Assembly (NCBI GenBank): GCA_013821455.1
Contig: JACDGS010000002.1
Span: 1 to 32,300 of the forward strand
DNA: 32,300 nucleotides
Direction of reading: 5' to 3'
Origin: Chthoniobacterales bacterium
GTDB taxonomy: Bacteria; Verrucomicrobiota; Verrucomicrobiia; Chthoniobacterales; UBA10450
Shown: positions 11,641 to 24,405 of the stretch, piece by piece
Position numbering within the stretch: position 1 is the first letter of the stretch
How the letters are laid out: the number at the start of each line of letters is the position of its first letter
Position numbers and translations under genes: made by a program
The notes under the pieces: model-generated
What the model saw: the letters and a program-made list of their open reading frames with translations, nothing else
What the model was told of the DNA's origin: nothing
Databases searched by the model: none

Positions 11641-12366
11641 ATGGCGAATTTCTTTCCGCGCTGGACGAACTGGCTTCCGCTCAAAATCACGATCTGCGGG
11701 ATCGTGCTCATCAGCGCGGTCTGCGGCGCGACCTGGTATTACGACACGCCGAAATATACGCGGGTCGGTTATCAGCCGGTGCAGCCGGTGCCGTTCCCGC
11801 ACGATCTGCACGTGACGCAGCTCGGGATGGATTGCCGTTATTGCCACAATGCGGTCGAGCTCGCGGCGCACTCGAACGTGCCTGACACGCAGGTCTGCAT
11901 GAATTGCCACACGCAGGTGCAAAAGGAGAATCCGAAGTTGCAGCCAGTGCGCGACAGTTGGACGACGGGTCAGCCGGTGCCGTGGGTGCAGATTCATCGC
12001 ACGCCGGATTACGTTTATTATAATCACTCGGCGCACGTGAATCGCGGGATCAGTTGTTATAGCTGCCACGGCGACGTCAATCACATGCCAGTGGTTTATC
12101 ATGCGAAGCCGCACAGCATGGCGTGGTGTCTGGAATGCCATCGCGCGCCGGAGAATTTTTTGCGGCCGGAAGATCAGATTACAAATCTGGATTGGAAACC
12201 CGATGATGTAGAGCCAGCGGCTTTCGTGGCGAAATACGGTGAGCCTGCGGGCGTGAAGGACGATTGGTCGCAGAAGAAGCATCTCACGCAGCGCGAGATT
12301 GGGCTGACGCTGAAGCAACGGTGGAATATTCAGCCGCCGACAAATTGTCAGGGGTGTCATCGATGA
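11641..12366 (+). CDS. actA: Alternative complex III, pentaheme cytochrome c subunit
   Basis: This 241-aa protein is the multiheme cytochrome of alternative complex III, which passes quinol electrons toward a periplasmic acceptor. It has an N-terminal membrane anchor at about residues 14-34 and five CXXCH heme sites, starting at C65, C86, C139, C163 and C236; the last is followed only by Arg241. Five hemes match the known ActA subunits. The repeated FPHDLHVTQLGMDCRYCH and YSCHGDVNHM contexts are typical of this family. It is the first gene of a collinear actABCDEF set. A long palindrome separates it from actB, which could lower actB expression or stabilise the actA mRNA end. Confidence 0.93.
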   Translation: MANFFPRWTNWLPLKITICGIVLISAVCGATWYYDTPKYTRVGYQPVQPVPFPHDLHVTQLGMDCRYCHNAVELAAHSNVPDTQVCMNCHTQVQKENPKLQPVRDSWTTGQPVPWVQIHRTPDYVYYNHSAHVNRGISCYSCHGDVNHMPVVYHAKPHSMAWCLECHRAPENFLRPEDQITNLDWKPDDVEPAAFVAKYGEPAGVKDDWSQKKHLTQREIGLTLKQRWNIQPPTNCQGCHR

Positions 12367-12529: not shown

Positions 12530-15500
12530 ATGAAGCGCATTCTGCAACATCCCGCGCCTAACGAGACCGGCCGTCAGTACTGGCGCAGCGTCGGCGAGCT
12601 GAGCGACACGCCGGAATTCCGCGGCTGGCTGGAGCGCGAATTTCCCGCGGGCGCGGCGGAACTTGGCGGTGACGAAACTTCGCGGCGCAGCTTCCTCAAG
12701 CTCATGGGCGCTTCGATGGCGCTGGCCGGTTTTGGGCTGAGCAGTTGCCGCAAACCGGAAATGCATCTCGTGCCTTTCACGAAAAGCGCCGAGTGGGTTA
12801 TCCCAGGAAAATTCCTTTACTACGCGACTGCGATGCCGCGGCGTTACGGCGCGATGCCGCTCGTCGTCGCGACGGTCGATGGACGGCCGATTAAGATCGA
12901 GGGCAACCCGAATCATCCCGAGAGCAACGGCGCGAGCGACGCTTTCGCGCAGGCTTCAGTACTCGATCTCTACGATCCGTCGCGCTCACAGCGATTCGTT
13001 AGGCAAAACAAGCTCTCTGATCGCGCCACCTTCGAAAAATATCTCGCGGAGCTGCGTCCGAAAATGGCGGCGAACGGCGGCGCCGGGCTGGCGTTTCTGG
13101 TCGAGGAAACCTGGTCGCCGACCCGCGATCGTTTGCGTACGGAATTGCAAAAGCAATTCCCGAAAATGCGGTGGTGCGTTTACGACCCGCTCCTGAGCGA
13201 GGCGCAGCATTTCTCGACCGAAATGAGCTTTGGCCAAAATGTGCGAGCCATCCCGCAGTTCGATAAAGCGGACGTTGTCTTCGCGCTCGACAGCGATTTT
13301 CTGAATTGCGGCGAAGGCGATCTCGCCGCCGTGCGCGGGTTCACTTCGCGCCGCCGCGTGCGCGAGGCGAAGGACTCGATGAATCGACTCTACGTGGTCG
13401 AAAATCATTACACGCTGACGGGCGCGATGGCCGATCATCGGCTCCGTTTTTCCGCGAGCCAGATCTCCACGATCACGCATGCGCTCGCGCTCAAGATCGC
13501 GGCCGGGACGAAGGACCCGGGCTTGTCGTCGGTCCTCATCACGCTCAAGGCGCCGGAAAAAGCGGAGAAGTTTGATGAGCGCTGGCTGGATGAAGCAGCG
13601 GCCGATTTATTGAGCAAACCGGGCGCGAGCCTCGTCGTGGCTGGACCGCAGCAGCCGGTCGTGGTGCAGCTCATGGTCTATGCGATGAACGTGGCGTTGC
13701 GGAATGTCGGCACGACACTTCTCGTGCGCGAGATGCCGAAGACCGCACGCGCCATCAGCATTCTGCAATTGGCGAGCGAGATCGATGCGGGCCGCATCCA
13801 GCAGCTTTTCATTTTTGGCGGCGACCCGGTTTACAACGCGCCGCGCTCCGTCGCGCTCGACCGCACAACGCGGCGGCAGCTCGATTGGGCCGACCTGCAA
13901 AAACGGGTTCCCGACGTCGTTAGGCTGGGACAATACGAGGATGCGACTTCCGCCTTGAGCCAATGGCATGTTCCCTCCGCACATTATCTCGAGAGCTGGA
14001 GCGATGGCCTAACGAACGGCGGATCCCACGTCGCGATGCAGCCAATGATCCTGCCGCTCTTCGGCGGGTTGTCGGAGATAGACCTCCTGCAAATGGTCGG
14101 CGGCCAGCCCGCGCCGAAGGGTCCGGAGCTGGTGCAGGAAACTTTTCGCCTAACGAATCCTCCGGGAGACTTCGACACGGCCTGGACGAAATTTTTGCAC
14201 GACGGTTTCGCCACGCACATCCCAGCAACAAACCGCCCCGCGAAGTTCAACGGCAACACTGCCGGCGGCGTGGCGCACACGCTTTGGAATATCCCGCCAG
14301 CGCCGACGAAGGAGTCGCCGGAAATCGTGCTCGTGCCGAGCTACGCGATGGATGACGGCCGCTATATCAATAACGGCTGGCTCCAGGAGATGCCCGACCC
14401 GATCACAAAACTGACTTGGGACAACGCGGCGTTGATGAGTCCGGCCTACGCGCACCACGTGGGCGTGAAAGATGGCGACCTCGTGCGCATCACCGTTTCG
14501 GAACCTCCACCGCCGGAAGTCAAACCGCGGCCGGGGCAACCTCCCACGCCGACTCCGCCGCCGCGCCCGCAAGTGCAACATGAGCTTGTCATCGCGGCGC
14601 TCGTCATGCCGGGGCACGCAGATAACTCGGTCACGGTGTCGTTAGGCTACGGCCGCAAACACACCGGCCCTGTGGGCGAGGATGCAGGCTTCAACGGCTA
14701 CCTGCTGCGCACCAGCTCAAACACGCATTTCATCGTCGCCGATGGCCGCGTAGTCGGCAGCGTGACGGTGAAAAAAGTCGGCACAAAATATCCGCTCTCG
14801 ATCACACAGGAACATTACTCGATCGAAGGCCGCGGACTCGTTAGAGAAGCGACGCTCGATCATTACCGCGCCGACGAAGATTTCGTAAAGAAGATCGCAG
14901 GCGATGAAGAATTGCCGGCGCAGTTGCCCTCGCTTTACACCCATCCGCCGCTGACCGCGCCGGAGCAATGGGGGATGACGGTCGATCTTAATACCTGCAC
15001 CGGCTGCAGCGCCTGCGTCATCGCTTGTCAGGCGGAAAATAACATCCCGATCGTCGGCAAATTGCAGGTCGGCCACGGGCGCTCCATGCATTGGATTCGG
15101 ATCGACCGCTACTACGCGAGCGCGAAGCCTTACAACCAGGACCACAACGAGTGGCCGGAGAATCCGGAGATCGTGCACGAGCCGATGATGTGCCAGCACT
15201 GCGAGAACGCGCCCTGCGAAACCGTCTGCCCGGTGAACGCGACCATTCACAGCGAGTCCGGGTTGAACGTGATGGTTTATAATCGTTGCATCGGCACGCG
15301 GTATTGCGCGAATAACTGCCCCTTCAAAGTGCGGCGTTTTAATTTCTTCGACTACACGCAGCGTCCGGTGGGCAAGGAAAAGATCGGCGGATTTTCCGTC
15401 TATCAGGAATACCTCGGGCCTTTCACGGAGAAGGGCGCGCCGGATACGATGAAGCTGCAAAAAAATCCAAACGTGACCGTGCGCATGCGCGGCGTGATGG

Positions 15501-15832
15501 AGAAGTGCACCTATTGCGTGCAGCGAATCGAGGAAGCGCTGATCGCCGCACATGTGCGCGCGGGAGCGTCGGACAAGACGCTGATTCCGCGGGATTCGTT
15601 CACGAGCGCGTGCGCGCAGGCTTGCCCGGCGGAGGCGATTGTTTTTGGCGACATCGCCGATCCGGAAACGCGCGTCTCCAAAGTAAAAGCAGAGAACCGA
15701 AATTATCGGCTGCTGGAATATTTGAACGTGAAGACGCGCACGAGTTATCTGGCGCGGATTCGCAACCCCAATCCGAAGATGCCCGATGCTCGCAATATTG
15801 GTGTTGCCAGCCCAGCGGAGGAGAAGGCGTGA
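12530..15832 (+). CDS. actB: Alternative complex III, molybdopterin-like/iron-sulfur subunit
   Basis: This 1100-aa protein is the large peripheral ActB subunit. A Tat signal (R52-R53 in [10 protein letters not shown]) comes after a family-typical leader containing GRQYWRS and [10 protein letters not shown]. The B1 part resembles molybdopterin oxidoreductases, although ACIII members are known to lack the cofactor. The B2 part (about 815 to the C-terminus) carries ferredoxin-type cysteine clusters: C823-x2-C826-x2-C829-x3-C833, [26 protein letters not shown], and CTYC with a later CAQACP. These fit the four Fe-S clusters of the complex. A proline-rich loop ([20 protein letters not shown]) near residues 660-680 is an unusual insertion. 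Iterated-motif copies lie at 12556, 12996, 13917, 14007, 14148 and 14639. Confidence 0.93.
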
Positions 15833-16002: not shown

Positions 16003-17466
16003 ATGGACGGCGCGCCTACAACTGCCCCGGACGTGATTAGAGCCGAAGCATCGGCGTCCGTCACGCAACCGCTCGCGCGCGTCCCGCTGGTTCTGAACAA
16101 GCGCAATTTCGATTGGGTCACGAATCGCATTGCCGGCGCAGTTGAAGGGGGGACGCCGCGCTGGTGGTGGGTCTCGTTCGCAATCACGGTGATGATCGCA
16201 GGCTTCGGCTTGTTTTGCCTCGGCTACCAAATCTCCACCGGCGTCGGCACTTGGGGACTGAATCACCCGATCGGTTGGGCGTGGGACATCACCAACTTCG
16301 TTTTCTGGATCGGTATCGGTCACGCCGGCACGCTCATTTCTGCGATCTTGTTTTTGCTCCGCCAGAAATGGCGCACCTCGATCAACCGCTCGGCCGAAGC
16401 GATGACGCTCTTCGCCGTCATCTGCGCCGCGATTTTCCCGGGCGTGCACGTCGGCCGCGTTTGGATGGCGTGGTTCCTTGCGCCGGTCCCGAATCAATAC
16501 GCGATCTGGCCTAACTTTCGCAGTCCGCTTCTGTGGGACGTCTTCGCGGTCTCGACTTACTTCTCCGTCTCCGTACTATTTTGGTACACCGGCCTAATCC
16601 CCGATCTCGGCACCCTGCGCGACCGCGCGACTTCGAAAATCAAAAAATTCCTCTACGGAATTTTCGCGCTCGGCTGGCGCGGCTCGAATCGCAATTGGCG
16701 CCATTACGAGATGGCCTACCTGCTTCTCGCCGGTCTCTCGACCCCGCTCGTGTTGTCGGTCCACAGCGTCGTCTCATTCGACTTCGCCACCTCCATTGTC
16801 CCGACGTGGCACACGACGATTTTCCCACCCTACTTCGTCGCGGGCGCGATCTTCGGCGGATTCGCCATGGTACTCACGCTGATGATTCCGGCGCGCGCGA
16901 TTTTTAAACTGCAGGACATCATCACGCCGCAGCACATCGACAAAATGGCGAAGATCATTTTGCTCACCGGCTCGATCGTCGGTTACGCCTATATGATGGA
17001 ATTTTTCATCGCCTGGTACAGTGGGAATCAGTACGAGAAGTTCGCGTTCTACAACCGCATCTTCGGTCCCTATTGGTGGTACTGGTGGGTCGGCATGCTT
17101 TTCTGCAACACGCTTTCGCCGCAGCTCTTTTGGTTCAAGTGGTGCCGGCAAAACATCTTCGTCGTTTACTTCGTCTGCATGTGCGTGAACGCCGGCATGT
17201 GGTTCGAGCGGTTCATCATCATCGTCGGCGGCTTGCATCGCGATTTTCTGCCGTCGTCGTGGGGATTTTTTACTCCGACCTGGGTCGATATCTGGACCTT
17301 CGTCGGGACGTTCGGAATTTTCCTTTCACTCTTCCTGCTCTTCATCCGTTTCCTCCCGATGATCGCGATGTCGGAAATAAAAATCGTCCTGCCGGAAGCT
17401 GACGCGCATTACGCCACGCCGGAAGAACATCATACCGTCGCGGCCGGAGGAATGGAGCGCAGATGA
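16003..17466 (+). CDS. actC: Alternative complex III, NrfD-like integral membrane subunit
   Basis: This 487-aa polytopic protein has about ten hydrophobic helices and belongs to the NrfD/PsrC-like ActC subunits, which hold the quinol site and are thought to couple electron transfer to charge movement. Family features visible are the N-terminal [17 protein letters not shown] region, [21 protein letters not shown], an [17 protein letters not shown] helix and WYSGNQYE near the middle. A cytoplasmic-type loop with an [16 protein letters not shown] basic patch sits at about residues 208-222. The stop overlaps actD in ATGA. There is no exact copy of the iterated motif inside, only GCCTAACTT at 16509, which is unusual for this window. 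Confidence 0.92.
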
Positions 17467-18020
17467 TCACGCCGAGCGGAAATCGTGTTTACGGAATCGC
17501 GGCGGAATATCCGAGTGCGGCGGCTCTGTACGAGGCGGCTAAAGTTGTGCGCGACGCGGGCTTCAAGCGCTGGGATGTGCATTCGCCGTTTCCGATTCAC
17601 GGCATGGATGACGCCATGGGGCTTGGCAAATCCTGGCTCAGTGCGGTTGTGCTTATTGGTGGAATCACCGGACTGCTCACCGCATGTGTTCTGGAATTTG
17701 GCCCGTCGTGGTATCTCTATCCGCTCGATGTCCACGGGAAGCCGACCAACTTCTGGACCGTCCCCGCGTTCTTCCCGATCATGTTCGAGCTGACGATTCT
17801 CTGTTCCGCCTTCAGCGCGTTTTTGGCGATGCTGATGATGAATCTGCTCCCGCGTTGGAATCATCCGATGTTTAACTGGGATCGCTTCAAACGCGTCACG
17901 AACGACGGTTTCTTCCTCGTCCTGGAAGCGCGCGACCCGCGCTTCAGCGAGAACGAAGCCGTGCAGTTGCTCGAGAAAACCGGCGGCCAGTACATCACCG
18001 CCATCCACGAGGAGGCCTAA
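17463..18020 (+). CDS. actD: Alternative complex III subunit D (DUF3341)
   Basis: This 185-aa membrane protein matches the DUF3341/ActD subunit. A short soluble N-terminal part includes [44 protein letters not shown], summarised here as the family's VRDAGF then SPFPIHGMD signature. Two helices follow at about 58-80 and 98-128, then a soluble tail ending AIHEEA. A good ribosome site (GGAGG) lies 8-14 bases upstream within the end of actC. ActD anchors the complex and has no cofactor. The stop TAA is supplied by a GCCTAACGA motif, and actE starts 3 bases later at the ATG that follows. Confidence 0.92.
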
Positions 18021-18023
18021 CGA

Positions 18024-18755
18024 ATGCTGCGCGCCTTCTTCCTCATTTTTATTCTGGTCGGGATCGCGTGGCTTTCGGTCTTTGGTTTTCGCGGGCAGAA
18101 GAGCAGCCGGCCCGAGATCGAAATTTTTCCCGACATGGTGCGGCAACCGAAAGTGCGCGCGCAGGCCGAGCTGAAGTTCTTCGCGGATGAGCGCGGCGGC
18201 CGCCAGCCGGTCGAAGGCACGGTGCCGATCGGCTACAACATGCCCTTGCCTAACGACGAAGGCAGCGCAGTAGATGAAGCGGGCGAGAACGCGATGCATG
18301 CACGGCTCGGCTTCAGCGAAGGGACTGATTATTACAACACGGGCAAGATGGGCGAGAACTGGGGCACCGGTTTCCCCATCGATGTCACGCCGGCGCTTCT
18401 GCAGCGAGGCCAGCAGCGTTTCAACGTGAACTGTGCCGTCTGCCACGGACCGCTCGCGGGCGGCGACGGCATCGTAAAGCAGTACGGCCTAACGACAGTG
18501 GTGAGCTTGCAGGACGACCGCATTCGCAAGATGGCCGATGGCGAGATCTTCAACACCATTACCCACGGCAAGAACACGATGATGGCCTACGGCCCGCGTG
18601 TCGTGGTGCAGGATCGCTGGGCGATCATTTGTTATTTGCGCACTTTGCAACGGAGTCAGCACGCGACCGAAGCCGATATCCCAACGGAGCATCGCGCGGA
18701 CTTGGAGAAAAAACCGGAGCCACCTAAACCCGCGGCGGAGCCAGCGAAGAAATGA
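18024..18755 (+). CDS. actE: Alternative complex III, monoheme cytochrome c subunit
   Basis: This 243-aa protein has an N-terminal anchor (residues ~3-20) and then the family stretch EIFPDMVRQPKVRAQ with FFADERGGRQPVEGTVP. One heme site follows, C137-A-V-C140-H141, with a candidate Met ligand in KNTMMAYGP. It is the second cytochrome of ACIII and a probable exit point for electrons. The C-terminus is a Lys/Pro/Ala-rich tail (KKPEPPKPAAEPAKK), one of several such tails in this operon. The stop overlaps actF (ATGA). Two GCCTAACGA copies lie inside, at 18248 (Pro-Asn-Asp) and 18487 (Leu-Thr). Confidence 0.92.
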   Translation: MLRAFFLIFILVGIAWLSVFGFRGQKSSRPEIEIFPDMVRQPKVRAQAELKFFADERGGRQPVEGTVPIGYNMPLPNDEGSAVDEAGENAMHARLGFSEGTDYYNTGKMGENWGTGFPIDVTPALLQRGQQRFNVNCAVCHGPLAGGDGIVKQYGLTTVVSLQDDRIRKMADGEIFNTITHGKNTMMAYGPRVVVQDRWAIICYLRTLQRSQHATEADIPTEHRADLEKKPEPPKPAAEPAKK

Positions 18756-19954
18756 GCGATCGATCCCACGTCCTGCCTGCGCCGGAAGGCGAATTTTTTG
18801 AGACGAATCGCTTCGCCGGTCTCTCGCTCATTTGCGGAGCGGTTGGGCTCATCGGGCTGGTGCTTAGTTTCATCGGCGCGTTCGTTTCGCCAGTGCAATT
18901 CAGTTTCTCCTGGCTCTTCGCCTTCATCTTTTTCTTCACCCTCTGCATCGGTTGTCTCTTCTGGACGATCGTGCATCACGTCGTCGATGCGGAGTGGTCG
19001 GTGGTCGTTAGGCGACAGCTCGAGAACATCGCGCTGCTCATGCCGGTGCTGGCCGTTCTGTTCCTGCCGATCTTGTTGTGGCGGAAATATCTCTATCGCT
19101 GGATGGATGTACCGCTCGGAGTGGACGCCGGTCTCGACGCCAAGCGCGCTTATCTGAACTGGGGATTCTTCCTCGGCCGGGCGATTTTCTTCTTTGTCGC
19201 GCTCAGTCTCGTCGCCTGGTTGATGCGCAGTCTTTCGGTGCGCCAGGATCGCGACGGAAATCCTCGTTTCACCCTCATGATGCGGAAGCTCGGTTTTGTC
19301 GGGCTGCCGATCTTTGCGCTTTGCCTAACGTTCGGCGCCTTCGACTGGCTGATGAGTTTGAACTGGCATTGGTTCTCCACCATGTGGGGCCCGTACATTT
19401 TCGCCGGGACGGCTGGAAGCTCGATGGCGCTGCTCATCCTTGTCATCACGGCCCTGCGACGCGCGGGTTACCTCAAGGAAGTAGTGAGCATCGAGCACTA
19501 CCACATCATGGGTAAGTGGCTCCTCGCCTTCACCGTTTTCTGGGCCTACATCGGCTTCAGCCAATACATGCTCTATTGGTACGCCAACATCCCGGAGGAG
19601 ACGCAGTACTTCATCATCCGGAATACGGAATCATGGAATGTGCTCTCGTGGTTCCTGGTCATCGGCCGCTTCTTCGTTCCGTTCGCGCTCCTGCTCCCGC
19701 GCGCGACGAAGAAAAGCGTGACCGGTATTTGCTGCCTCGCCGGTTGGATTCTCTGCATGCAGCTGCTCGACATGTACATCATCGTCCTCCCCGCGCTGCA
19801 CGGTACCGGCGTGCATCTGAGCATTCTTGATTTCCCGCCGCTGTTCGCCATCGGTGGCACGCTCGCTTTTTTCTACCTGCGCATTGTCGGCAAAACGTCG
19901 CTCTTCCCCGTGCGCGATCCCCGGCTGCTGGAATCTCTTCGCCTAACGAACTAG
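18752..19954 (+). CDS. actF: Alternative complex III, second NrfD-like membrane subunit
   Basis: This 400-aa protein has about ten hydrophobic helices and the ActF landmarks: GLSLICGAVGLIGL in helix 1, TLCIGCLFWTIVHHVVDAEWSVVVRRQLE after helix 2, TFGAFDWLMSLNWHWFSTMWGPY, and EHYHIMGKW followed by FWAYIGFSQYMLYWYANIPEET. It is the pseudo-paralogue of ActC and lines the other putative ion path of the complex. It overlaps actE by four bases. The C-terminus ends in RLTN, encoded by an iterated motif at 19941 just before the stop. Confidence 0.92.
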   Translation: MSDRSHVLPAPEGEFFETNRFAGLSLICGAVGLIGLVLSFIGAFVSPVQFSFSWLFAFIFFFTLCIGCLFWTIVHHVVDAEWSVVVRRQLENIALLMPVLAVLFLPILLWRKYLYRWMDVPLGVDAGLDAKRAYLNWGFFLGRAIFFFVALSLVAWLMRSLSVRQDRDGNPRFTLMMRKLGFVGLPIFALCLTFGAFDWLMSLNWHWFSTMWGPYIFAGTAGSSMALLILVITALRRAGYLKEVVSIEHYHIMGKWLLAFTVFWAYIGFSQYMLYWYANIPEETQYFIIRNTESWNVLSWFLVIGRFFVPFALLLPRATKKSVTGICCLAGWILCMQLLDMYIIVLPALHGTGVHLSILDFPPLFAIGGTLAFFYLRIVGKTSLFPVRDPRLLESLRLTN

Positions 19955-19967
19955 CCGTGCCTAACGA
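19941..19967 (-). repeat. Two iterated 9-mers spanning the actF stop and the next start
   Basis: Exact GCCTAACGA copies start at 19941 and 19959, 18 bases apart. The first encodes Leu-Thr at the end of actF; the second encodes Pro-Asn-Asp directly after the GTG start of the following gene. Together they frame the junction. Confidence 0.85.
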
Positions 19968-20631
19968 CGACACTCTCCTTCATCCCGATCAGCCGCGCTT
20001 CCTCTTTCCGGCCTGGTTATGGGCGGTAACGTTGTTTATCTTTTTCGCCGTCATCGTCGCCATCACTTTCGGCGCGATGAAGCGCGGTTCGACCTACGAA
20101 GCGGAACGGGCCGACGCGCGGGTGACGAAGTTGAAAACCGCGCGCGAAGATTGGGATAAAACTTCCAATACTTACGGCTGGGTCGATCAGGCGAAAGGCG
20201 TCGCGCATATCCCGATCGCGCGTGCGATGGAAGTAGAATTGCCTGAGCTGCAGGCGCGCAAACCCGAGGCAGCCGGTCCGATCGGCACGCCTGCGCCCGA
20301 CGCCGCGCCGGTGACGGCAACGGGCGCCGCGCAGCCAGCTAATCCGACAGCCGTCGCTCCCGCAGCGTCAGCGACTCCGAAGGCGACGACCGCGGAAGGA
20401 AATGATTCCGAGGGGCACAATCAACCGGCCGCCGCCGCTAATCCGCCGAGCGCTCCGCGCAACACGCAGCCGGGACTTGGGACCACGCCAGCGGCGAAGC
20501 CGAAATCCAAAACCGAAATCGCACCGATCACGCCGACAGCGACACCAGTGAAACATCCGGTGGGCACGCCGATCCCGGTTCGTGGCGCCGGAGCGCCGGC
20601 CCCAAGCGCGACATCTTCACCTCGACCCTGA
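19957..20631 (+). CDS. Single-helix membrane protein with Ala/Pro-rich tail, ACIII-associated
   Basis: This 224-aa protein starts at a GTG only 2 bases after the actF stop. One membrane helix spans about residues 18-40 (PAWLWAVTLFIFFAVIVAITFG). A charged segment follows, then the motif YGWVDQAKGVAHIPIARAM (about 68-86), which I recall from small proteins that accompany ACIII and oxidase genes in related phyla. The last ~130 residues are low-complexity Ala/Pro/Thr. No heme, metal or catalytic motif is visible. An accessory or assembly role in the respiratory complex is likely from its position and is inference. Confidence 0.7.
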   Translation: MPNDDTLLHPDQPRFLFPAWLWAVTLFIFFAVIVAITFGAMKRGSTYEAERADARVTKLKTAREDWDKTSNTYGWVDQAKGVAHIPIARAMEVELPELQARKPEAAGPIGTPAPDAAPVTATGAAQPANPTAVAPAASATPKATTAEGNDSEGHNQPAAAANPPSAPRNTQPGLGTTPAAKPKSKTEIAPITPTATPVKHPVGTPIPVRGAGAPAPSATSSPRP

Positions 20632-20635
20632 CCCC

Positions 20636-20821
20636 ATGCGCCTCACCGATTTTTTCGCGAGCCTGCGACGGCAGGATGAAAACGCGACCGTTATTTTTTC
20701 GGAAGCAGAACCGATTGGCCGGGCGACCGATCTCGTGATGCCTTACCGGCCGTTTTTCTCAAAGCAGCGGCGCCAAAATTCTTCGCCCGCGCGAACCGCG
20801 GCCACGCCTAACGAACAATGA
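20636..20821 (+). CDS. Small hypothetical protein between ACIII and ccoN-like genes
   Basis: A 61-aa ORF starts 4 bases after the previous stop and ends in an ATGA overlap with the ccoN-like gene. The sequence is soluble and basic toward the end (MPYRPFFSKQRRQ) and has no membrane helix, so it is not CcoQ or CcoS. Position and tight overlap argue that it is translated, but I recognise no family. Its last codons come from an iterated motif (Pro-Asn-Glu). It could instead be just the leader region of the next gene. Confidence 0.5.
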   Translation: MRLTDFFASLRRQDENATVIFSEAEPIGRATDLVMPYRPFFSKQRRQNSSPARTAATPNEQ

Positions 20822-22305
20822 GCACGACTGTCGAGATCGAACCCGAGCCGCTGCTCAGTCCCGCGGATGTGACCGCCGCAGAAGTCGATCGCGTCGAGCG
20901 AGCGCTGATCGATTCTTCCACGCGGTTGCCGGTTCTCGTTTTCTACACCTCGGCCATCGCTTGGCTGATTCTCTCCACTCTTCTCTCGATTGTGACGGCG
21001 CTGAAATTGCACGCGCCGGACACTCTGGCTGAAGTGCCGTTCCTGACCTGGGGACGGCTCAGCCCTGCGCAGTTCGACATTCTTATTTACGGTTGGGCGT
21101 CGATGGCGGGAATGGGCACTGCGATCTGGCTCATGGCGCGTCTTTGCCGGACGACTCTGCGGCATCCGCTGCTCCTCATCAGCGGCGCAGCGTTCTGGAA
21201 TCTCGGCGTGCTCATGGGCACCGTGGGAATCTTGGCCGGCGGCAGCACAGGTTACGAGTGGCTCGAATATCCGGGTTACGCCGCGGTCGCGCTCTTCTGC
21301 GCTTATCTCCTCATCATGACCTGGGGTTTGATCATGTTCCGCTTCCGGCGGCGCGGCCACGTTTACATCACGCAATGGTATTTGTTAGGCGCTTTCCTCT
21401 GGTTCCCGTGGCTCTACGCCGCCGCGCAGTTGATGCTGTTTGTTTTCCCGGTTCAGGGCGTGATGCAGGCGGCGGTGAATTGGTGGTTCGCGAATAATCT
21501 GCTCTTTCTCTGGTTCGGCTCGATCGGACTCGGGACGGCGTATTACATGATCCCGAAAGTGATCGGGCGTCCGGTGCACAGCTATTATTTGGCGACGCTG
21601 GGCTTTTGGACTTTCGCGTTGTTCTCGAGTTGGACCGGAATGCAGCGACTGATCGACGGACCATTTCCCGCGTGGATGGTCACGGCCAGCATCGCGGCGA
21701 CGATCCTCACGCTGATTCCCGTCGCGACTGTTGGGCTTAATCATCACATGACGATGCGCGGATTTTTCCCGCTCCTGCGCTATAGCCCAACGCTGCGCTT
21801 CACGGTTTTCGGCGCGATTTCCTACACCGCGTTCAGCTTCGTCGGGGTAATGATGTCGCTCCGCTCGATGGCTCGCCTCGTGCATTTCACCGAGGTGAGC
21901 GTGGGCTACACTTACCTTGGGCTCTACGCATTTTTCACCATGGTGATGTTCGGCTCGATGTACTACATCGTGCCGCGGCTGGTGGGCCGCGAATGGCGTT
22001 ACGCGTCGCTGATCAAGCTGCACTTTTGGTCGGCCACGTACGGCATTGGCCTGATGGTGTTGCTGCTGCTCGTCGGCGGTTTCGCGCAGGGCGTGAGCCT
22101 GAATGATCCCACGCTGCCGTTCTCCGAGAGCATGGATACGATTGCGCCTTATCTGCGCGGGCGAAGTTTGTCCGGTCTCTTATTGACCATCTCGCATTTT
22201 GTTTTCGCGTTTCATTTCGGCCTCATGCTGCTCGGCTTCGGCCGGACGGCCAGCGTGCCCACGTTCCTGAATCCGCTCGAACGCGAACCCGGAGGAGGAC
22301 ACTGA
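20818..22305 (+). CDS. CcoN-like cbb3 subunit I homologue lacking all heme/Cu ligands
   Basis: This 495-aa, roughly 12-helix protein aligns along its length with cbb3 oxidase subunit I: WGRLSP, then NWWF...MIPKVIGRPVHSYYLA, then RFTVFGAISYTAFSF, then HFTEVSVG, then YYIVPRLVGREW. By eye against Pseudomonas stutzeri CcoN recalled from memory, every cofactor ligand is replaced: low-spin heme H60 by Q85; copper ligands H207, H257 and H258 by N226, Q276 and R277; heme b3 H345 by Y364; and the second low-spin heme ligand H347 by Y366. The fold is otherwise intact and the frame is open, so this looks like a kept, non-catalytic homologue rather than a decaying gene. It probably serves as a membrane scaffold for the cytochromes encoded next. 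It is likely to be mislabelled an oxidase by similarity. Confidence 0.88.
   Translation: MSTTVEIEPEPLLSPADVTAAEVDRVERALIDSSTRLPVLVFYTSAIAWLILSTLLSIVTALKLHAPDTLAEVPFLTWGRLSPAQFDILIYGWASMAGMGTAIWLMARLCRTTLRHPLLLISGAAFWNLGVLMGTVGILAGGSTGYEWLEYPGYAAVALFCAYLLIMTWGLIMFRFRRRGHVYITQWYLLGAFLWFPWLYAAAQLMLFVFPVQGVMQAAVNWWFANNLLFLWFGSIGLGTAYYMIPKVIGRPVHSYYLATLGFWTFALFSSWTGMQRLIDGPFPAWMVTASIAATILTLIPVATVGLNHHMTMRGFFPLLRYSPTLRFTVFGAISYTAFSFVGVMMSLRSMARLVHFTEVSVGYTYLGLYAFFTMVMFGSMYYIVPRLVGREWRYASLIKLHFWSATYGIGLMVLLLLVGGFAQGVSLNDPTLPFSESMDTIAPYLRGRSLSGLLLTISHFVFAFHFGLMLLGFGRTASVPTFLNPLEREPGGGH
22291..22298 (+). promoter_or_regulatory. Strong ribosome binding site for the ccoO-like gene
   Basis: GGAGGAGG ends 6 bases before the ATG at 22305. 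It is one of the few strong Shine-Dalgarno sequences in the window and fixes this start, which overlaps the previous stop by one base (TGATG). Confidence 0.7.
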
Positions 22306-23198
22306 TGAAAGGTTTGCAGGCACTCTTCATCGGTATCTTCGGGATTTTCGCTTTCTCCTGGCTGGGCATGACCGTGATTCCAAATTTGCAGATCGGCAGT
22401 CTCAACCCGCAGACGGATGAAGATGGCGGAGATGTTTATCCCGCGCCGCCCTCCGGGATGGCGACACGCGGTGCCCAGGTCTATGCCGCAAATGGATGCG
22501 TCTATTGCCATTCGCAGCAAGTCCGGCCGGATTACGGCGGCTCCGATCTTGAGCGCAAATGGGGTGAACGTCGCAGCGCGCCGCGCGATTACATTTTCGA
22601 GCCGATCGTCCTCCTCGGAAAAATGAGAGTCGGTCCCGATCTCGCGAATGTTGGTCACCGTCCCGCGTTGCAGGAGAAAGGTGCGGCCGCGCCCACATCT
22701 CCGACCGCAGGGACAGCCGCCTCGCCTGCCGCGAGCCCGTCGTTAGGCGCGAGCCCGGCTGTCGCCGCGGCTTCGGCTTCGCCTGCCCCTGCTGTCCTAC
22801 CCGCCGCCGGCGACAAGCCCGCGCCTAACGTCGCCACGACCGCGCCCGCGTTGGTCGGGGACGTTGCCGCCCTCACGAGCGACGGCCAACCTATTCCCTA
22901 TTCCGCCGCGTGGCATCACCGGCACCTCTACGCGCCGCGCAGCGTGAACGAAGATTCCATCATGCCGGCTTATCGATTCCTTTATCAAAAACGGCGCATC
23001 TCCGGCGTCATCTCGCCGGACTCGCTCAATTTCGTCGGCGCAACGAATGATGATCCGGAATCCGGCTGGGAGATCGTCCCGAGCTATGACGCGAAATGTC
23101 TCGTCGCTTATCTGATGTCGCGCGATCAATCGCACGCCTTGAAAGAAGCGAAGTCGCCCGTGATTGCGGCGGCCCCAGGAAAGGTGGCGCAAAAATGA
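22305..23198 (+). CDS. CcoO-like membrane-anchored monoheme cytochrome c
   Basis: This 297-aa protein resembles the CcoO subunit of cbb3 oxidases. It has an N-terminal anchor (about 5-25) and a heme site C65-V-Y-C68-H69 followed by the CcoO-typical SQQVRP. It then has KMRVGPDLANVG, WHHRHLYAPRSV and SIMPAY with the axial Met at about M220. Unlike its partner CcoN homologue, it keeps its heme ligands. Residues ~120-198, between GHR and YSAAW, are an Ala/Pro-rich low-complexity insertion absent from ordinary CcoO, where these elements are nearly adjacent. Two iterated motifs (22740, 22823) lie inside that insertion. It probably relays electrons from ACIII. The stop overlaps the next start (ATGA). 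Confidence 0.88.
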   Translation: MKGLQALFIGIFGIFAFSWLGMTVIPNLQIGSLNPQTDEDGGDVYPAPPSGMATRGAQVYAANGCVYCHSQQVRPDYGGSDLERKWGERRSAPRDYIFEPIVLLGKMRVGPDLANVGHRPALQEKGAAAPTSPTAGTAASPAASPSLGASPAVAAASASPAPAVLPAAGDKPAPNVATTAPALVGDVAALTSDGQPIPYSAAWHHRHLYAPRSVNEDSIMPAYRFLYQKRRISGVISPDSLNFVGATNDDPESGWEIVPSYDAKCLVAYLMSRDQSHALKEAKSPVIAAAPGKVAQK

Positions 23199-23965
23199 CC
23201 GGGCACCTTCCGCCAAACCCGCAACATCAGGGCATGGACTACGGCGAGACCGAAGCCCTGCATGAATCGCACGCCGCGATCGTTAGGGAAAAAGTCGAGC
23301 CCCGCATGGGCCGCGAGCCACTCTCGCTTTGGCTGATCACCATCTATGGATTGGCGGTCTTCTTCGGCGGCGCTTACCTCGGGCGTTACGGCGGAAATTG
23401 GAGCGGCGATGGTCTCGACTATCTCGGCGGCGCACCGCGCGTCGCCAGCCACGCAGGTGCCGGCGGAGCGGCAGCCGAACAAACCACCGAACTAACTCCC
23501 GCGCAGAAGGGCGCGAAGATTTTTTCGGCCAACTGTGCCACGTGCCATCAGGCAAACGGACTTGGCGTCGCCGGACAATATCCGCCTCTGGCCGGTTCCG
23601 AGATCGTCATCGGCGGGTCCCGCCGTCCGGTCATGATTTTGCTCAAAGGGCTGCAAGGTCCTCTCACGGTCAAGGGTCAGAAGTTTGGCTCTGCGGTCAT
23701 GCAGCCGTGGGACAAAACTCTCACCGACCAGAAGATCGCCGACGTCCTGACCTACGTACGTCAGGAATGGGGTAACACTGCCAGCCCGATCTCCGCTGAA
23801 GGAGTCGCCGCCATGCGCAAGGAGTTGGCCAGTCGCGCCGAATCGTGGACCGAGCCCGACATCCTCGCAGTCCCGGCGACGGAAGATGCACCGGGAGCAG
23901 CGCCCGCCGCTCCGGGCGGAGAAGCCAAGCCAGGCGCCAGCCCAGCCGCGCCGCCGAAGGCGTAG
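23195..23965 (+). CDS. Membrane-anchored monoheme class I cytochrome c
   Basis: The start is the ATG at 23195 overlapping the previous stop (ATGA); an upstream extension would read into the ccoO-like gene. The 256-aa protein has one anchor at about residues 46-63 and a heme site C114-A-T-C117-H118 in the context KIFSANCATCHQANGLGV. A probable Met ligand is M169 (SAVMQPW). It ends in a ~40-residue Ala/Pro/Gly tail. It has one heme, whereas CcoP usually has two, so it is a cytochrome in the CcoP position rather than a normal CcoP. It is the last gene of the 12-kb respiratory run. Confidence 0.85.
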   Translation: MTGHLPPNPQHQGMDYGETEALHESHAAIVREKVEPRMGREPLSLWLITIYGLAVFFGGAYLGRYGGNWSGDGLDYLGGAPRVASHAGAGGAAAEQTTELTPAQKGAKIFSANCATCHQANGLGVAGQYPPLAGSEIVIGGSRRPVMILLKGLQGPLTVKGQKFGSAVMQPWDKTLTDQKIADVLTYVRQEWGNTASPISAEGVAAMRKELASRAESWTEPDILAVPATEDAPGAAPAAPGGEAKPGASPAAPPKA

Positions 23966-23994: not shown

Positions 23995-24405
23995 TTAACT
24001 TCCGGGCAAACCAGTAAGCAACTTGCCCAAAACGATAGTCGTTTGTTCTCGATCAAACTGACTTGAGGCCACGCCGAGAACGAATTTTTCCCATTCGTCG
24101 ATCGGCAACTTCTCGTTAGGCAAGAGATCGTTTGCCTCCAGGAAAACGAGACACGACGCGAGCGCCGTGCGTTTGTTGCCATCGAGGAAAGCGTGATTGC
24201 AACAGAGGTAATACAAGTAGGCAGCCGCCACTTCCACCGGCTCGGTCATGAGCGGTTGCCCCATCATGGTCGCTTGCGGCGCGGCGATGGCAGATTCTAG
24301 GAGTGCTTTATCTCGGATGCCCGCAAGGCCACCATGGGCAGCCAGCACTTCAGCATGAATCGCCTCGACCGCGGCAACGGTCAGGTGAATCAGCGGAGTG
24401 CTCAC
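23995..24405 (-). CDS. doc: Doc-family toxin (Fic fold)
   Basis: This 136-aa protein has the death-on-curing Fic-fold motif HAFLDGNKR (HxFx[D/N]GNKR) near residues 70-78. Upstream it carries the typical Doc helix pattern GIRDKALLESAIAAPQ. Doc toxins phosphorylate elongation factor Tu and stop translation until bound by an antitoxin. The GTG start overlaps the upstream antitoxin stop in GTGA, a normal toxin-antitoxin arrangement. It faces the end of the respiratory operon convergently with a 29-base gap that contains one iterated motif. The toxin family is clear; activity is not shown. Confidence 0.92.
   Translation of the reverse strand: MSTPLIHLTVAAVEAIHAEVLAAHGGLAGIRDKALLESAIAAPQATMMGQPLMTEPVEVAAAYLYYLCCNHAFLDGNKRTALASCLVFLEANDLLPNEKLPIDEWEKFVLGVASSQFDREQTTIVLGKLLTGLPGS

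Follow-up and report, generated by a model that had tools for sequence, protein, structure and literature searches.

A conserved cbb3 oxidase subunit I homolog lacking heme and copper ligands in ACIII gene clusters of Verrucomicrobiota

A ligand-less CcoN in Chthoniobacterales

To our knowledge, subunit I of heme-copper oxidases has been assumed to be catalytic wherever it is found. We describe a homolog of the cbb3 (C-type) subunit I, CcoN, in which all six histidines that serve as heme and CuB ligands are replaced. The gene is intact and under purifying selection, and the loss of ligands is recurrent across Verrucomicrobiota rather than peculiar to this one gene. The protein is probably a structural part, not the oxidase of annotations and papers.

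The gene lies in a stretch of 32,300 nt from a Chthoniobacterales bacterium (GCA_013821455.1, contig JACDGS010000002.1, positions 1-32,300, forward strand), which is called the window below. The relevant features, all on the + strand, are as follows.

11641..12366, +: actA, penta-heme cytochrome c with five CXXCH motifs and no sixth mobile heme
12530..15832, +: actB, assigned by gene order and by its identity to actB of related loci
16003..17466, +: actC, NrfD family
17463..18020, +: actD, assigned by PF11821
18024..18755, +: actE, mono-heme cytochrome c
18752..19954, +: actF, assigned by gene order and conservation
19957..20631, +: orf199, small Pro/Ala-rich protein with one TM
20818..22305, +: ligand-less ccoN, cbb3 subunit I homolog of 495 aa without heme or CuB ligands
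21070..21072, +: codon CAG, Q85, opposite the first low-spin heme b His (H60 of 3MK7_A)
21493..21495, +: codon AAT, N226, opposite a CuB His (H207)
21625..21627, +: codon TCG, S270, opposite the cross-linked Tyr
21643..21648, +: codons CAG CGA, Q276 and R277, opposite the CuB His pair H257/H258
21907..21909, +: codon TAC, Y364, opposite the heme b3 His (H347)
21913..21915, +: codon TAC, Y366, opposite the second low-spin heme His (H349)
22305..23198, +: ccoO, mono-heme cytochrome c subunit II (CVYCH, MPAY), its start overlapping the ccoN stop
23195..23965, +: membrane-anchored mono-heme cytochrome c (CATCH), weakly CcoP-like, its start overlapping the ccoO stop

The reading frame runs uninterrupted from an ATG at 20818 to a stop codon ending at 22305. 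The protein aligns by phmmer with P. stutzeri CcoN (3MK7_A, E=8e-42) and matches Pfam COX1 (PF00115, E=2e-51, 175 bits); thus, the twelve-helix COX1 fold is present. Its AF2 model (mean pLDDT 83, pTM 0.86) has 3mk7_A as the best Foldseek match (TM 0.84/0.89, rmsd 2.3 Å), so that the comparison with 3MK7 proposed in a first-pass annotation of this DNA finds the CcoN fold kept.

That annotation had also claimed, from an alignment by eye, that the six ligands are replaced by Q85, N226, Q276, R277, Y364 and Y366. With the ligand numbering of 3MK7 (H60, H207, H257/H258, H347, H349), the alignment to 3MK7_A and an alignment to ligand-complete homologs (L059, L061 and L063, 54-59% identity) agree with this assignment. 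Relocated ligands were ruled out by an inventory of histidines: all ten internal His of the protein lie outside the ligand columns, and nearly all of their columns also hold His in 38 ligand-complete homologs. Each of the six replacement codons (CAG, AAT, CAG, CGA, TAC, TAC) encodes a residue one base away from His.

Judged by alignment and model, the protein would have no binding site for heme b, heme b3 or CuB, and it is predicted to be unable to reduce O2. The low-spin His pair, the heme b3 His, the CuB His and the Tyr that mark a C-type subunit I are all missing. By these function-defining sequence features, it is a homolog of the C-type subunit I that falls outside the C-type oxygen reductases. 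The expectation that automatic annotation would call it an oxygen reductase holds for the Pfam COX1 match and for published descriptions of cbb3 (see below), but not for NCBIfam TIGR00780 (ccoN), against which it scores 158 bits, below the 583 cut-off.

Purifying selection on the gene

For pairs among the window gene, L001, L003 and L002, NG86 dN/dS values are 0.069, 0.044, 0.041 and 0.103; the values are approximate, as dS is ~1-1.5. They are close to those of two ligand-complete CcoN pairs (0.057 and 0.073, NG86) and to the values for the CcoO and ActF encoded alongside. The residues at the six ligand sites, QNQRYY in the window, are identical in the independent assemblies L001 and L003 (86-91% identical). 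Among columns that are invariant in ligand-complete CcoN, 39 stay at ≥90% in the ligand-less proteins, and 41 drop to ≤50%; the six ligands and the Tyr are all among the latter.

The absence of every catalytic residue might suggest that the gene is decaying or misassembled. However, the frame is open in every complete locus, dN/dS is 0.04-0.10 with dS close to 1 or higher, and the identical pattern recurs in independent assemblies. Ligand-less copies are also found in closed genomes of cultured Methylacidiphilum. We reject this explanation, whose probability we regard as negligible, on the strength of the dN/dS values and the independent assemblies. The gene is under purifying selection and is not a pseudogene, and the earlier claim that it is intact stands.

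Stepwise and repeated loss of ligands

Our first survey comprised 79 CcoN loci from genome contigs, to which clusters of relatives and a phylum-wide sample were later added. All six His are kept in 13 of the 79 loci. More than 50 Chthoniobacterales loci read H-N-Q-R-Y-H at the ligand sites, which means that the binuclear center is lost and the low-spin pair is kept. The low-spin ligands are lost as well in the window, L001 and L003 (QNQRYY), L035 and L044 (QNQRYQ), L040 (QNQQYE), L047 (YNQRYD) and L064 (FQTRQQ), and one of the two is lost in L002, L008 and L022. On the tree, L002 and L008 adjoin the window's clade, and the remaining full losses sit on separate branches. The order read from this tree is that, in the window's family, the binuclear center was lost first and the low-spin heme pair later, repeatedly. 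The description of the family as cofactor-free is therefore apt for several clades, the window's among them, but not for the family as a whole, in which most close homologs (52 loci) lack the O2 site but keep the low-spin pair.

Ligand-less CcoN proteins, with many differing residues at the sites, occur in families f1, f3-f7, f13-f18 and f20. Among 154 scorable CcoN proteins, 44 have six His and 107 have two or fewer, and the cross-linked Tyr is gone in every lineage without the binuclear center. When the ligand-less proteins are all constrained to a single clade, with the ligand columns left out of account, the log-likelihood drops by 120 units (p-AU 2e-6). A single origin is thus rejected by the AU test, long branches being a reason for caution, and the O2-reducing center has been lost at least twice in Verrucomicrobiota. 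Because several ligand-less rows are on long branches, further losses are possible and the count is a minimum.

Tyrosine is known as a heme ligand in other proteins, which counts against a cofactor-free reading and might even allow for an active oxidase that uses Tyr, Gln, Arg and Asn as atypical ligands. Yet CuB needs three nitrogen ligands, for which the window protein offers N226, Q276 and R277. Moreover, the replacements vary between lineages, and the Tyr cofactor has disappeared from every lineage that lost the center. We therefore judge such an oxidase to be very improbable.

Several individual patterns were also recorded. The first low-spin His (position 85) is kept in every sampled locus of families f15 and f18 (L151-L153, L155, L158-L166, L189, L190), and I, L or V stands at the partner site of this lone His85. 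In f17, L171, L173, L175, L177 and L180 show parallel His-to-Gln replacement at four of the six ligand sites (QQ-RH-QQ). In L095 (G051:C100, HRYHHHH), a single CuB ligand is changed, possibly as a first step of loss or through a sequencing error; in L085 of the same family, all six ligands are gone.

Restriction to ACIII clusters

In the window, actABCDEF lies directly upstream of orf199 and ccoN, as recognized by ActD (PF11821), the NrfD protein, the five-heme ActA and the conserved order. The arrangement of actA-F, the small open reading frame, ccoN, ccoO and the cytochrome c gene is conserved among related loci. Most loci encode an orf199-type protein between actF and ccoN, whether or not CcoN is ligand-complete, and the window's copy has no Pfam or NCBIfam match. 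The reading frames of ccoN, ccoO and the cytochrome c overlap by 1-4 bases. The neighboring cytochromes were claimed to keep their hemes, and indeed CcoO has its CXXCH motif and Met ligand (CVYCH, MPAY), and CATCH is present in the cytochrome c encoded behind it. The latter is not a di-heme CcoP: it carries one CXXCH and scores 35.5 bits with the ccoP model, versus 180.

The search proposed earlier for homologs with the same substitutions beside actF retrieved L001 and L003, which share the window's pattern, and a much wider association. All ligand-less CcoN genes with upstream sequence are preceded by actF (104/104, also tallied as 91/91), none of the 26 CcoN without actF upstream is ligand-less (all 26 are ligand-complete), and 33 ACIII-linked copies are ligand-complete, although the rows in these counts are phylogenetically non-independent. 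CcoO keeps its CXXCH in 107/107 ligand-less loci with sequence there.

No ligand loss was found in 19 CcoN from Acidobacteriota and five from Polynucleobacter relatives, all of which keep six His. The sole ligand-less copy in an Acidobacteriota-labelled bin (L044/L200, G340) belongs to a cluster of verrucomicrobial type and is probably mis-binned. On these samples, a spread of the loss to other phyla was rejected.

Two further observations concern the surroundings of the cluster. Just behind the cytochrome c gene, a Fic/Doc-like protein with the motif HAFLDGNKRTA is encoded on the opposite strand (23995-24405, -). The window genome also has a second ACIII cluster (L083, G000:C67:40000-56000), whose ActB-F are 35-50% identical; the oxidase behind it has a CoxB that carries heme c, and no CcoN is present there.

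The "cbb3 oxidase" of Methylacidiphilum

Family f16 is a methanotroph family, with AMO/pMMO genes in 6/6 genomes tested. The ACIII-linked CcoN of strains SolV and Kam1 has the ligand-less form, with S-E-S-H-F-V at the six ligand sites (string SESSHFV). No second CcoN was found in the SolV and Kam1 genomes, and the ~198-bit COX1 match in f16 is a NorB-like protein, as read in Kam1 and one other genome. On the basis of these residues, the "cbb3" of Methylacidiphilum SolV and Kam1 cannot be an oxidase.

The genes adjoining ACIII have been listed as a cbb3 oxidase and tied to high oxygen affinity (PMC6688271 for Kam1; PMC8498564; PMC10205796). An ACIII-linked cbb3 of verrucomicrobial methanotrophs and Opitutaceae is credited to Refojo 2010 in the citation given by PMC8498564. 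Ligand loss goes unmentioned in these papers on ACIII-linked cbb3 (PMC6688271, PMC8498564, PMC10205796). More generally, no earlier report of a conserved family of heme-copper oxidase subunit I without any cofactor ligand was found in the open-access literature searched.

An aa3 oxidase as candidate partner

In many relatives, the cytochrome c gene is followed on the same strand by coxA, coxC and coxB, which encode a complete A-type oxidase. Within f1, this is the case for L004, L013, L017-L019, L022, L036, L038, L053, L056 and others. CoxA is encoded downstream of ligand-less CcoN in families f1, f5, f6, f13, f15, f16 and f18; it is not adjacent to the ccoN cluster in the window, nor in f14, f17 and f20. 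The CoxA ortholog of the window genome is encoded on contig C11 (L084), has all A-type motifs and shares 82-86% identity with the CoxA encoded behind the cluster in f1 loci. The earlier suggestion that a true oxidase is encoded elsewhere was thus correct. The partner is likely this specific aa3 oxidase, whose genes stand behind the cluster in many relatives. A true CcoN encoded elsewhere was considered as the partner and rejected, because no second CcoN was found in the contigs of the window genome, which gave just two other COX1 matches.

A neighboring coxA does not alone explain the loss of ligands, because coxA is absent in some families (for example, f17) and also follows ligand-complete CcoN (L059, L061, L122, L123). 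A causal role for this neighbor is therefore not established.

In 26/26 ligand-less loci tested, ActA has five hemes, and CoxB has CuA and no heme c. The bridge to the oxidase is the sixth heme of ActA in the ACIII supercomplex of F. johnsoniae (PMC8552683) and a heme on oxidase subunit II in that of R. marinus (PMC5928083). Because both known heme bridges are missing here, the link requires a further cytochrome c. The natural bridge would be CcoO together with the membrane cytochrome c, with the ligand-less CcoN as their holder in the membrane.

Possible roles of the ligand-less subunit

We favor, with some reservation, a role as a pseudo-oxidase that holds cytochromes c between ACIII and aa3. 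The protein has retained its fold, and its gene its position among the ACIII genes; it would act as a membrane scaffold that carries mono-heme CcoO and the neighboring membrane cytochrome c. Electrons would then pass from menaquinol to ACIII (ActB/ActA/ActE), to CcoO and/or the membrane cytochrome c, and to CuA of a separate aa3 oxidase. The ancestral state may have been ACIII with an active cbb3 oxidase. Once an A-type oxidase was available, O2 reduction could have moved there, and first the binuclear center and later the low-spin heme could have decayed, repeatedly. We consider the chances evenly balanced that the dead subunit is a standing part of a supercomplex of this composition (ACIII, CcoO and membrane cytochrome held by the ligand-less CcoN, and aa3) and arose repeatedly from active ACIII-cbb3. 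The association of the protein with ACIII and the oxidase is read from gene order in relatives, and soluble cytochromes c could serve as alternative carriers in place of such a bridge. The hub proposed in the first-pass annotation, which would dock ACIII to cytochromes c, is likewise a putative role.

The overlapping reading frames of ccoN, ccoO and the cytochrome c gene, the unfailing presence of CcoO, and the families in which CoxA is not adjacent would also fit a protein with no more than an assembly or anchor role, which stabilizes CcoO and the cytochrome c as they mature or enter the membrane, with no bridging of ACIII and oxidase. However, this role leaves the restriction to ACIII clusters unexplained (104 linked copies, 0/26 unlinked), and one TM helix is enough to anchor a cytochrome c. 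We therefore regard it as rather unlikely.

A pure scaffold would need no low-spin ligands, and their retention in 52 close homologs argues against such a role. Along with the lone H85 of f15 and f18, this retention raises the possibility of a new redox or transport function, such as a heme b relay or quinone site where relatives have retained low-spin ligands, or an ion channel derived from the old proton paths. However, the window protein and several other lineages have independently lost both low-spin ligands, and no common substitute has emerged: position 85 holds A, Q, F, Y, C, L, R or S, and position 364 holds Y, Q, F, R, L, A, V, E, T or M. We consider a new function less probable still than a role confined to assembly or anchoring, and prefer a scaffold for cytochromes c.

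Implications

As a result of these findings, Methylacidiphilum and many soil Verrucomicrobiota, including relatives of Candidatus Udaeobacter, lose a presumed high-affinity cbb3 oxidase, from which papers or annotation derive a microaerobic capacity. In one gene within one cluster, there is a graded series from six His, to loss of the binuclear center, to loss of both hemes, which lets the change from enzyme to structural part be traced. Transfer from ACIII to an oxidase without the extra heme becomes directly testable in cultured bacteria that are non-pathogenic. If the proposed bridge is real, it would be a third solution to the linking of ACIII and oxidase, beside a six-heme ActA and a heme-bearing oxidase subunit II.

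Comparison with known systems

The ligand-less protein shares with CcoN of the cbb3 oxidase (PDB 3MK7) its fold over ~450 aligned residues (26% identity), and in both cases the gene for the CcoO partner lies directly behind. In contrast to cbb3, the protein lacks all six ligand histidines and the cross-linked Tyr, its gene sits in an ACIII cluster, and a mono-heme cytochrome c takes the place of the di-heme CcoP. The ACIII-cbb3 clusters described for methanotrophs and Opitutaceae have the same components (act genes, ccoN, ccoO, a cytochrome c and aa3 genes), but the methanotroph papers treat CcoN as an active cbb3 oxidase. In Methylacidiphilum caldifontis IT6, N2O reductase genes have been reported within the ACIII-cbb3-aa3 cluster (PMC11102522).

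As in the supercomplexes of F. johnsoniae and R. marinus, ACIII would feed an A-type oxidase encoded downstream. Unlike in those systems, neither ActA nor subunit II bears the bridging heme, and ccoN, ccoO and the cytochrome c gene lie in between. Within ACIII itself, ActF is a cofactor-free paralog of the catalytic membrane subunit ActC that is kept in the same complex (PMC5928083). The ligand-less CcoN resembles ActF in this respect, although ActF has the NrfD/PsrC fold, whereas CcoN has that of the heme-copper oxidases.
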